Under the pieces are notes generated by a model. It had not been told where the DNA came from and did no database searches. It saw nothing but the letters and a program-made list of their open reading frames with translations. Positions 59,470-62,187 of a stretch of DNA of 64,000 nucleotides are shown here, piece after piece. The position numbers were made by a program, and so were the translations under genes. The first letter of the stretch is position 1, and each line of letters opens with the position of its first letter. Source of the DNA: Acidobacteriota bacterium (GTDB taxonomy: Bacteria; Acidobacteriota; Terriglobia; Versatilivoradales; Versatilivoraceae). The DNA is taken from assembly GCA_022826755.1 (NCBI GenBank), contig JAJDUG010000008.1:62001-126000 (forward strand). The letters are read 5' to 3'.

Positions 59470-59593
59470 GGCAAAAACGGGGAACGTTGTTGAATAGCAG
59501 GAGATATCGGGCAGGGTGATGTTGAAATCCCTTGGATAGGGTCGGAAGGGCTCAATACACCGTAGTTCGACACGACACGGCCTGATGCGAACA
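59470..59593 (+). mobile_element. Island element, 5' half only
   Basis: GGGGAACGTTGTTGAATAGC to ACGGCCTGATGCGAAC; it keeps the AAGGGCTCAATACACCGTAG block matching copy 2 (AAGGGCTTGATGCCGCATAG), and breaks off just before copy 3, as if that copy had inserted. Confidence 0.5.
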
Positions 59594-59601
59594 AGGAGGA
59601 A

Positions 59602-59782
59602 AATAGGGGGCGTTGTTGAATTACTGGATAAACGGGGCGGGAGGGTTCGGAAATGCCTCGGATAAGGAAGAAAAGGGTCGAAGCCGGGTCGTGTGACAGG
59701 CTGCGCTGTGAATCAGGGCGGTTCGGACGGACCTGACGGAGAGTACGGAACAAGGTTATTCCAGAAAGTCAAGAACGTCGCT
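59602..59782 (+). mobile_element. Island element, copy 3
   Basis: Begins AATAGGGGGCGTTGTTGAAT, contains GTCGTGTGACAGGCTGCGCT and CGGTTCGGACGGACCTGACG, ends TTATTCCAGAAAGTCAAGAA CGTCGC (degenerate). Lies immediately 3' of the coiled-coil gene on the opposite strand. Confidence 0.6.
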
Positions 59783-59812
59783 TTATCTTGTCCCGGCTAA
59801 AACCGGTTTGGG

Positions 59813-60142
59813 CTACGACGTGAGGATCTTGTAAAGCAGGCCGAGCATGGGAATGAACAGCAGGCTGATGAGCGTCCAGATGATCTTGGTCAGGTTGTTC
59901 ATCTCCGCTCGGAGCGCGGTGAACTGAGCTTGCAGTGCGGTGAATTGAGCTTGCAGCCCATTGATCTGTGCTTGCATCTCAGACCGGAGCTCAGTGATCT
60001 GGGTTCCGATGGCGGTGATGACATTCTGGCCACTCAAGTTGCGCATCTCCTCGATGGCGGGATGGATCAGCTTGGGGTCCGCACCGCTGTCGATCAGGAC
60101 CCGATGAATTGCGCTGGTTTGAGGCTTGGACGAGGTCGGCAT
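59813..60142 (-). CDS. Membrane-anchored coiled-coil protein, short paralogue
   Basis: 109 residues; GGGAGAAAG before the ATG at 60140-60142. N-terminal MPTSSKPQTSAIHRVLIDSG...DPKLIHPAIEEMRNLSG (in parts) is a small helical head; residues about 46-85 are a coiled coil of one 11-residue unit ITELRSEMQAQ, two 7-residue units INGLQAQ and FTALQAQ and FTALRAEMNNL; the last 20 residues IIWTLISLLFIPMLGLLYKI are a transmembrane tail. Bdr-, DUF1640- and apolipoprotein-like proteins share such designs; no homology is claimed. TATACT -10-like box lies at about 60276-60281 on this strand. Confidence 0.72.
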   Translation of the reverse strand: MPTSSKPQTSAIHRVLIDSGADPKLIHPAIEEMRNLSGQNVITAIGTQITELRSEMQAQINGLQAQFTALQAQFTALRAEMNNLTKIIWTLISLLFIPMLGLLYKILTS

Positions 60143-60359
60143 CAGCTTTCTCCCTTTCCGGATGGGGTGATTCCGCTCACCCAACCCGTGGAAACGATTC
60201 AATTCAAAGAGGGAGAAAGGCACGGCCACGCCGGGACGGTCAGGACCGATCAGCACCGGCGAAACCAGACCTTGCACAGTATACCCCGACAGCCTCGCTC
60301 TTGCTGCCACGAATTCTTGCCCTGATTCCCTGCCTCCGTCTCCCGGCCACCGCAAACAA

Positions 60360-60460
60360 TCGGGGACATTGTCCAATGGCCGCCAATACCTGGTGGGGTG
60401 ATTCTGGACACGCTTTGGATCCGGCGAGGCAGACTCGTTCCCTACGATGTGACAGGCCGG
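60360..60460 (+). mobile_element. Degenerate island-element 5' end
   Basis: GGGGACATTGTCCAATGGCC, AATACCTGGTGGGGTGATTC, GACACGCTTTGGATCCGG resembles the first half of copy 2 (AATACCTGGTGCAGCGAGTC, AATGCTTTGGAAAGGG). Confidence 0.4.
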
Positions 60461-60479
60461 CTGCCTTCAGCACTCGACG

Positions 60480-60592
60480 AAAAGTCAGCCCCAGCCAAAG
60501 GAATAAGGCATAAATATGCGGGCGCGACGCCCGCGCTCCCGGGGGGCTTTGGGCGACCCGTGCCGATCCGAATTTTGCAAAGGGTTCACGGA
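60480..60592 (-). repeat. R4 GC-palindrome element, partial copy
   Basis: AGCCAAAGGAATAAGGCATA, TGCGGGCGCGACGCCCGCGC, ending GAATTTTGCAAAGGGTTCAC. Same order as other R4 copies. The gap 60143-60736 thus contains element remnants, this repeat and the left part of the duplication, but no gene. Confidence 0.65.
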
Positions 60593-60593
60593 A

Positions 60594-60712
60594 GAAAAGG
60601 GTCGAAAATGCGTCGTGTGACAGGCTGCTCTGTGAATTAGGGCAGTTCAGACGGACCTGACGTAGCCTAGGGAACGATGTTATTCCGGTGAGTCAAGAAC
60701 GTCGCTTTATCT
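60594..60712 (+). mobile_element. Island element, 3' part only
   Basis: AAAAGGGTCGAAAATGCGTC, GTGTGACAGGCTGCTCTGTG, CAGACGGACCTGACGTAGCC, TTATTCCGGTGAGTCAAGAA CGTCGC. Corresponds to the 3' part of copy 3, in the same position relative to the coiled-coil gene. Confidence 0.55.
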
Positions 60713-60736
60713 TATCCCGGCCAAAATCGGTTTGAA

Positions 60737-61198
60737 TTACGACGTGAGGATCTTGTAAAGCAGCCCGAGCATGGGAATGAACAGCAGGCTGACGAGCATC
60801 CAGATGATCTTGGTCAGGTGGTTCATCTCCGCTCGGAGCGCGGTGAATTGAGCTTGCAGCCCATTCATCTGTGCTTGCATATCAGCCCGGAGCTCGGTGA
60901 TCTGAACCTGCAGGCCGTTGATCTGAGCTTGCATCTCGGCCCGGAGTTCATTGATCTGAGTTTGCATCTCGGCCCGGAGTTCATTGATCTGAGTTTGCAC
61001 TTCGGACCGGAGCTCAGTGATCCGAGTTTGCACGTCGGACCGGAGCTCAGTGATCTGGGCTCCGATGGCGGTGACGACGTTCTGGCCGCTCAAGTTACGT
61101 ATCTCCTCGATGGCGGGATGGATCAGCTTGGGGTCCGCACCGCTGTCGATCAGGACCCGATGGATTGCGCTGGTCTGAGGCTTGGACGAGGTCGGCAT
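60737..61198 (-). CDS. Membrane-anchored coiled-coil protein, long paralogue
   Basis: 153 residues from ATG 61196-61198, preceded by GGGAGAAAG. Head and tail almost identical to the 109-residue paralogue (IIWMLVSLLFIPMLGLLYKI). The coiled coil is longer: units ITELRSDVQTR, ITELRSEVQTQ, INELRAEMQTQ, INELRAEMQAQ, INGLQVQ, ITELRADMQAQ, MNGLQAQ, FTALRAEMNHL, that is 11-residue units with two 7-residue ones. Function unknown; an inner-membrane tether with a rod-like cytoplasmic domain is inferred. -10-like TATACT upstream at about 61335-61340. Confidence 0.72.
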   Translation of the reverse strand: MPTSSKPQTSAIHRVLIDSGADPKLIHPAIEEIRNLSGQNVVTAIGAQITELRSDVQTRITELRSEVQTQINELRAEMQTQINELRAEMQAQINGLQVQITELRADMQAQMNGLQAQFTALRAEMNHLTKIIWMLVSLLFIPMLGLLYKILTS

Positions 61199-61581
61199 CG
61201 ACTTTCTCCCTTTACGGATGGGGTGATTTCGCTCACCCGACCCGTAGACACGATTTAATTCGAAGAGGGAGAAAGGCGCGGCCACGCCGGGACGGTCAGG
61301 ACCGATAAACACCAGTCATGGCCAGCAGAAACCAGTATACCACATTACCTTGCTATGCCGCCACAAATCCCTACCCGGCTTCCCTGATTCAGTCTCCTGG
61401 CACACTGGAACAAACGGGCAACCACAAGGGTTGACCCGACGTTGGGGGGACAGCGCGAGACAGCCCAGGAAAGATTTCCCTCCAGCGCCCATCCCATCGA
61501 GAACCCGCGCGGTTCCTCCTGGTCGCTTCAGGTATACTGTGGCGAAATTCATTCATTGAACCGATTCACCGAGGAGACCCC
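61199..61581. other. Intergenic region, right part of duplication plus unassigned DNA
   Basis: 61199 to about 61405 matches 60143-60345 of the first paralogue's upstream region, including the CAGTATACC block. From about 61405 to 61581 no gene or repeat is recognised; it should carry the promoter of the DUF1080 gene. Confidence 0.45.
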
Positions 61582-62187
61582 ATGTTCTCGCGCATCCCCA
61601 TCCTGGCGGTTCTTGCCGCCCTTTCGTTCGGCCTGGCTTGTCAATCGTCCACGACGGAGCAGTCGGGCGCCGTCGACGTGCTCGACTTCGAGAAGGACTT
61701 TTTCGTTGCCTTTGGAGACCCGGCCTCCTGGAAGGCCGATGGCGGCGTCATCCAGTGCAACGGCACGCCAAACGGGTATCTCTCCACCCGGAAGTCCTAC
61801 TCAAACTACGTTCTGACGCTGGAGTTCCGCTACCCCGAGCAGGCCGGCAACAGCGGAGTGTTCAACTACATCTCCGGAGAGCACAAGGTCTGGCCGGCCT
61901 GCGTGGAGGTCCAGGGACTCTACTCGCGGTTGGCGCAGATCTTTCCCCTGGGGGGCGCCGAGGGGCCCAGAAGCGACGGCGACGAGGAGGCGCGGGCCAA
62001 GGCTCGCAAGCCCCATACGGAATGGAACCGGCTGGAGATCACTTCGCGGGACGGCGTGATCGGCGCCAAGCTCAACGGCGTCTTTATCGGCGAGAGCGGG
62101 CCCTATCCGGTGCGCCAGGGGCCGATTGCCTTGCAGTCGGAAGGGGCGCCGGTGCATTTCCGGAACGTGGAGATTCGGGAGATGTAG
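61582..62187 (+). CDS. DUF1080 (3-keto-disaccharide hydrolase-like) lipoprotein
   Basis: 201 residues, GAGGAG 7 bp upstream. Lipoprotein signal MFSRIPILAVLAALSFGLAC with cleavage before Cys20. The concanavalin-like DUF1080 core follows: FGDPASWKADGGVIQCNG, TLEFRYPEQAGNSGVFNYIS, EVQGLYSRLAQIF, EWNRLEITSRDGVIGAKLNG, GPIALQSEGAPVHFRNVEI. Families named 3-keto-disaccharide hydrolase take part in sugar breakdown after oxidation at C3. No partner oxidoreductase is near. Its stop TAG is the first part of an R3 arm. Confidence 0.86.
   Translation: MFSRIPILAVLAALSFGLACQSSTTEQSGAVDVLDFEKDFFVAFGDPASWKADGGVIQCNGTPNGYLSTRKSYSNYVLTLEFRYPEQAGNSGVFNYISGEHKVWPACVEVQGLYSRLAQIFPLGGAEGPRSDGDEEARAKARKPHTEWNRLEITSRDGVIGAKLNGVFIGESGPYPVRQGPIALQSEGAPVHFRNVEIREM

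Follow-up and report, generated by a model that had tools for sequence, protein, structure and literature searches.

Two neighboring genes on the minus strand of the window (the whole 64,000-nucleotide stretch of DNA analyzed here, which belongs to contig C79 in an Acidobacteriota genome of 4.6 Mb) probably encode tail-anchored coiled-coil tethers, in which the register of the coil is selected while its length drifts by turnover of tandem units. In the proposed architecture, a small helical head leads into a rod whose units are 11 or 7 residues long, and a membrane helix forms the C-terminus. The head, the anchor, and the leader preceding each gene are conserved, and the number of units turns over at fixed loci, always by entire 33-bp or 21-bp units, so that both frame and register are kept. 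Such steps would result from slippage or from unequal recombination among tandem units, those that break the register would be purged, and the length of the rod itself would be weakly constrained or locally adapted. The protein would oligomerize through the rod, with its tail inserted in the inner membrane, and would keep the head on the cytoplasmic side at a distance of roughly 4-13 nm; we infer that it serves at the membrane as a scaffold, spacer, or tether.

The long-form gene (60737..61198, minus strand, 153 aa) and the short-form gene (59813..60142, minus strand, 109 aa) are open frames with conserved starts and Shine-Dalgarno sequences. All of their parts lie on the same strand. Each gene begins with a 47-codon head (61058..61198 in the long form and 60002..60142 in the short form; 44 of 47 residues identical), predicted in the long form to fold as a short helix, a turn, and then a long helix. 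The rod follows (60818..61057, 80 codons, and 59894..60001, 36 codons), and a C-terminal membrane anchor of 26 codons completes the protein (60740..60817, LTKIIWMLVSLLFIPMLGLLYKILTS, and 59816..59893; 24 of 26 residues identical). The anchor is kept in all copies and in distant relatives. An earlier note on this DNA held that the pair has a common head, anchor, ribosome site, upstream leader, and downstream element, and translation, parsing, and alignment confirmed it: the leaders share 91% identity across 112 nt, and the downstream repeat elements (59666..59810 for the short form and 60590..60734 for the long form, minus strand) are 86% identical over 145 nt. The element is present in another genome, G006, too. 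The rods that the note had described, 11-7-7-11 in the short form and 11-11-11-11-7-11-7-11 in the long form, were reproduced exactly on parsing, and its 33-bp and 21-bp DNA units were recovered by Tandem Repeats Finder (a 33-bp array with 4.2 copies and 91% match, and a 21-bp array with 2 copies and 95%). The statement that the rods differ only by units is correct as to the units but not as to "only," because substitutions inside units occur as well. Downstream of the short gene, positions 59560-59640 of the window contain short dispersed repeats, and a stretch of approximately 27 bp recurs often in G000, G001, and G006.

Further copies, length variation, and a preserved frame, the absence of which from relatives the earlier note would have counted against unit-wise growth, were all found within the genus. 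Nineteen intact copies are distributed over seven species and three syntenic loci, A, B, and C; locus A adjoins the window gene 61582-62187, and locus B adjoins a mutY-like gene. In the window genome, contig C61 carries a third copy, and the six other species have two to four copies apiece. In a maximum-likelihood tree built from leader, head, and anchor, copies group by locus and not by genome, and the two window copies are sisters (support 95/89). Thus, the window pair is best read as the product of a lineage-specific tandem duplication, after which the two copies would have had different unit histories. Some loci have lost their gene: G001 has a clean empty site at locus B, the locus C gene is absent in the window species, a remnant of 23 codons is found at locus A in G002, and an interior fragment remains at locus C in G004. 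Every examined genome of the genus retains at least two copies. These remnants and absences show that individual copies are dispensable. The stretch immediately 3' of the G006 locus C gene (L061 6316-6442) recurs in inverted orientation in the window genome, at its locus C without the gene (L081 8076-8202).

At each locus, the number of units changes from species to species; one genome per species was examined, and the length differences are therefore between species and not between strains. Locus A has eight units (long form) and four (short form) in the window species, five in G001, three in G003, five in G004, eight in G005, and three in G006. The counts at locus B are six (G000), four (G002), six (G003), four (G004), five (G005), and eight (G006), and those at locus C are three (G001), seven (G002), four (G003), three and four in a tandem pair (G005), and four (G006). 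The clearest orthologue pair is found at locus B in G003 and G005, where leader, head, and anchor are near-identical and the rods, 62 and 51 aa, are one 33-bp unit apart. These data bear directly on the possibility that the rod is a molecular ruler, with the number of units setting a selected distance between head and membrane that is tuned for each paralogue or species. Such a role would agree with the discrete length steps, with the different lengths that tandem paralogues keep, and with the conserved head. However, coiled-coil spacers usually conserve length (PMC5082667), and the length conservation expected of a ruler is not seen at any of the three loci: orthologues in close relatives span 29-80 aa at locus A, 44-84 aa at locus B, and 33-77 aa at locus C. 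We therefore consider a ruler unlikely.

What the rods do conserve is their phrasing. All 19 rods from the seven species, 29-84 aa in length, resolve completely into units of 11 and 7 residues. The locus B copy of G006 is phrased otherwise under a looser parsing rule; the stricter rule was adopted for all 19. The first and last units are hendecads in every rod, and heptads are confined to loci A and B. Hendecads have Leu at position 5 in 77 of 80 cases and Gln at position 1 in 75 of 80. The 33-bp units are more alike when adjacent (mean DNA identity 84%, with some pairs at 100%) than when non-adjacent (78%), as tandem duplication predicts. The growth and shrinkage by whole units that the earlier note had envisaged is thus borne out, with same-locus orthologues having from three to eight units. 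Over the 19 copies, the head is under purifying selection, with a dN/dS of 0.16; the value for the anchor is 0.43. A further suggestion of the note, that unit choice would tune the rod as well as its length, found no support, because orthologues keep neither length nor unit mix and the net periodicity of every rod stays at 3.60-3.67 residues per turn. This is approximately the periodicity of an undistorted helix, 3.63 residues per turn (PMC4786415); thus, the rods would be near-straight, with a total supercoil difference per rod of only some -60 to +76 degrees, and any tuning of handedness would be minor and is unlikely.

Turnover of this kind could also be a contingency or phase-variation device that switches protein properties between strains, as in repeat-containing surface proteins. 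The family is multicopy, its tandem repeats have near-identical neighbors, and the unit number of Mycoplasma pneumoniae RepMP1 genes does vary at the strain level (PMC3472980). On the other hand, the frame is kept in all changes, which excludes on/off switching; the units are imperfect, with most neighbors less than 95% identical, suggesting slow turnover; and the lack of a signal peptide makes surface exposure unlikely. Phase variation is therefore a quite improbable explanation of the repeats.

AlphaFold2 monomer models show short head helices followed by a single continuous helix through rod and anchor (helices 11-18, 23-35, and 38-108 in the short form); confidence in the head is low, with block means of 46-68 over the first 30 residues. 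A Foldseek search of the PDB with the short-form model gave no significant match, and a PDB profile search with the heads gave no relevant one. With a C-terminal membrane helix and no signal peptide, the rod is most likely cytoplasmic, with a predicted reach of ~4-13 nm. A continuous helix could also lie singly on the membrane as an amphipathic helix of the apolipoprotein or synuclein type, given that such helices and coiled coils have an 11-residue periodicity in common and that the best Pfam score is to an apolipoprotein repeat, although below its cut-off. What we see instead is a narrow 3-4-4 stripe (I, L, and M at positions 2, 5, and 9) that switches to true heptads (3-4), as the cores of coiled coils do, whereas wide apolar faces flanked by lysine appear to be absent. 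We give a membrane-lying helix little chance and interpret the rod as a coiled coil.

Conservation extends upstream of the genes. Approximately 110 nt 5' of each start are conserved, with a mean divergence of 13% in the last 80 nt, compared with 22% at the third positions of head codons. The conserved leaders (61199..61312 for the long form and 60143..60256 for the short form, minus strand) are non-coding, because one-base insertions or deletions in several copies break the frame; for the same reason, a long upstream extension of both open reading frames was ruled out as coding. Each leader carries the sequence TTCTCCC ~70 nt upstream, complementary to the ribosome site GGGAGAA, and may form a stem that sequesters the Shine-Dalgarno sequence. 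On the minus strand, the anti-Shine-Dalgarno (CTTTCTCCC) is at 61267..61275 in the long form and at 60211..60219 in the short form, and the Shine-Dalgarno (GGGAGAAAG) is at 61202..61210 and 60146..60154, respectively. Both cores are invariant in all 19 copies, and the G002 remnant is the sole place with an altered anti-Shine-Dalgarno (TTCGCCC). The two cores are paired in the predicted folds of nearly all copies folded. A covariation test of the stem over the 19 copies gave no support, the core pairs being invariant; whole-structure measures were not above those of shuffled sequences, and no Rfam family matched the region at an E value of 1 or less. The leader probably limits translation, since its anti-Shine-Dalgarno is perfectly complementary to the ribosome site and able to pair with it. 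Alignment of the 19 upstream regions also revealed a conserved TATACT, likely the -10 box (61334..61339 in the long form and 60278..60283 in the short form, minus strand); a consensus scan for a standard sigma-70 promoter upstream of the long form found none. Copies fall into two promoter-region types, GTCAGGGTATACTGTTCAAGG and GATGTGGTATACTGTCTTCTGCTGG, and the window genes carry one type each, a hint of an earlier state with two copies or of gene conversion at locus A.

That the gene, its leader, and a downstream repeat form a small mobile cassette, with paralogues representing insertions and not inherited duplicates, is highly improbable: promoter, leader, and gene do recur together, with the downstream element at locus A, and the locus B site in G001 is clean, but the same three loci are occupied across species, the tree groups copies by locus, neither a target-site duplication nor a terminal inverted repeat was seen, and the short CAAGGCCTTCAA repeats that in G000 flank the stretch missing from the empty G001 site fit a deletion. 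A search for a mobile origin among viral contigs, phages, and plasmids found none, a single distant DUF1640-annotated plasmid protein aside, and a search of a defense library gave generic coiled-coil scores only. PHROG family phrog_9415 (function unknown, 168 positions) matches residues 41-139 of window protein P0001, that is, rod and anchor (E 2.6e-12), suggesting that there are phage proteins of similar layout.

The protein family is not limited to the genus. With a head profile, a single relative was detected in G156, which belongs to another family of the same class (34% identity along almost the full protein length), and this led to multicopy sets in G607, G608, and G610; at phylum distance, another family has single members in three genomes. 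The protein family spans other Acidobacteriota families and another class and is often multicopy. Distant relatives keep the head (...DPDLA..A.EE.R..AGQNVI...GA) and the anchor (VIWPL...FGLLY), and their rods are built of other sequences (EAKIDAQGAHL, DAQSERI, and others). The strongest self-match lags of these rods are 18, 33, 33, 33, 32, 11, 29, 7, 11, 22, 36, and 7, each of them a sum of 7s and 11s (18 of 42 tested lags are such sums). In two G608/G610 pairs of similar copies, the lengths differ by 14 and 7 residues.

A second CCDC90-like gene with a different head (VTEVYQALVDAGASEEKARAAAEAI; L070, L072, L074, and L075) is syntenic in G001, G003, G005, and G006. Its rods are 113 aa (G001; gene near L100 4258-4789), 124 aa (G003; gene near L098 3870-4434), 69 aa (G005; gene near L101 3705-4104), and 58 aa (G006; gene near L099 3928-4294), all 3 modulo 11; in G005, where Met and not Leu follows the IVG motif, the rod was likewise counted to that motif. 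This family, then, also varies by 11-residue steps, and turnover of whole hendecads is not peculiar to the first. A further hendecad family (L073, L076, and L010) has an N-terminal membrane helix (LIQWLPLFGFGSVLTILIAIIGVGVGLWRN) and RTDIQGVQGEV units in varying number.

Taken further, these observations could describe a multicopy family of rods, tethered to the membrane and found throughout Acidobacteriota, for which length is an evolvable setting: selection would fix register, head, and anchor, tandem-unit turnover would keep generating lengths, the Shine-Dalgarno-sequestering leader would set dosage, and a cell would carry graded tethers of different reach. We regard this larger picture as doubtful. 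The family offers a natural experiment on how coiled coils evolve: within one gene at one locus, the length can change but the register cannot, which separates selection on phase from selection on length. The rods also provide a ready-made length series, from 29 to 84 residues, for ideas about spacers and rulers, and a conserved candidate translational leader is defined.

The known family closest in plan is CCDC90-like/DUF1640 (PF07798), which includes MCUR1, CCDC90B, and prokaryotic relatives and likewise has a helical head, a coiled-coil stalk, and a C-terminal membrane helix. In the window family, stalk and membrane helix are evident from the 3-4-4 and 3-4 hydrophobic spacing and the conserved apolar C-terminus. 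Pfam searches gave sub-threshold coiled-coil matches only, CCDC90-like among them; many Pfam, PHROG, and NCBIfam matches were set aside as generic coiled-coil similarity. The PF07798 gathering score is 33.5 bits, and lower scores were obtained for window proteins P0001 (24.7) and P0002 (13.9) and for a distant relative (17.0). Comparison of a broad head profile with CCDC90-like heads by hhalign gave a gapless match over 28 columns (E 2.4e-5, probability 75%, score 26.1), a score reached by none of 300 column shuffles (maximum 13.4). DUF1640 stalks are marked at their start by a beta-layer motif, [aliphatic]-A-T-K-[polar]-[DE] (PMC4786415). This motif is absent from the stalk start in all 19 copies, where GQNV..AI..Q stands (GQNV..AIGAQ after the head). 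A head match without the beta-layer motif, together with sub-threshold Pfam scores, identifies the family, as judged from sequence, as a divergent, unnamed relative on the CCDC90-like plan and not a PF07798 member. Its remote CCDC90-like head broadens the prokaryotic relatives of MCUR1 and CCDC90B. The second CCDC90-like family shares the head-rod-anchor plan and has syntenic rods that vary in whole hendecads, but its hendecads are purely of the ELKQDIAELRS type, without heptads, and its head is nearer to canonical DUF1640.

Periodicities of 11/3 and 7/2 can share one rod in hendecad/heptad coiled coils in general (PMC4786415). The window family has the same mix, but here the units are also DNA repeats that turn over between orthologues. 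The closest precedent for such turnover is RepMP1/DUF16: in the RepMP1 genes of M. pneumoniae, DUF16 coiled coils vary between strains by 21-nt in-frame units, which the authors ascribed to slipped-strand mispairing and unequal crossover (PMC3472980). DUF16 (PF01519) is not among the Pfam matches listed for P0001 or P0002, and one distant relative scores 27.2 bits, below the cut-off of 40. Both are multicopy coiled-coil families with in-frame length variation by tandem units. However, the proximal region of the RepMP1 genes (the RepMP1 core) is unrelated, the window family has a different head and anchor, variation there is between strains and here between species at the level of orthologues, and only 21-nt heptads are reported there, whereas the rods described here mix 33-bp hendecads with 21-bp heptads.
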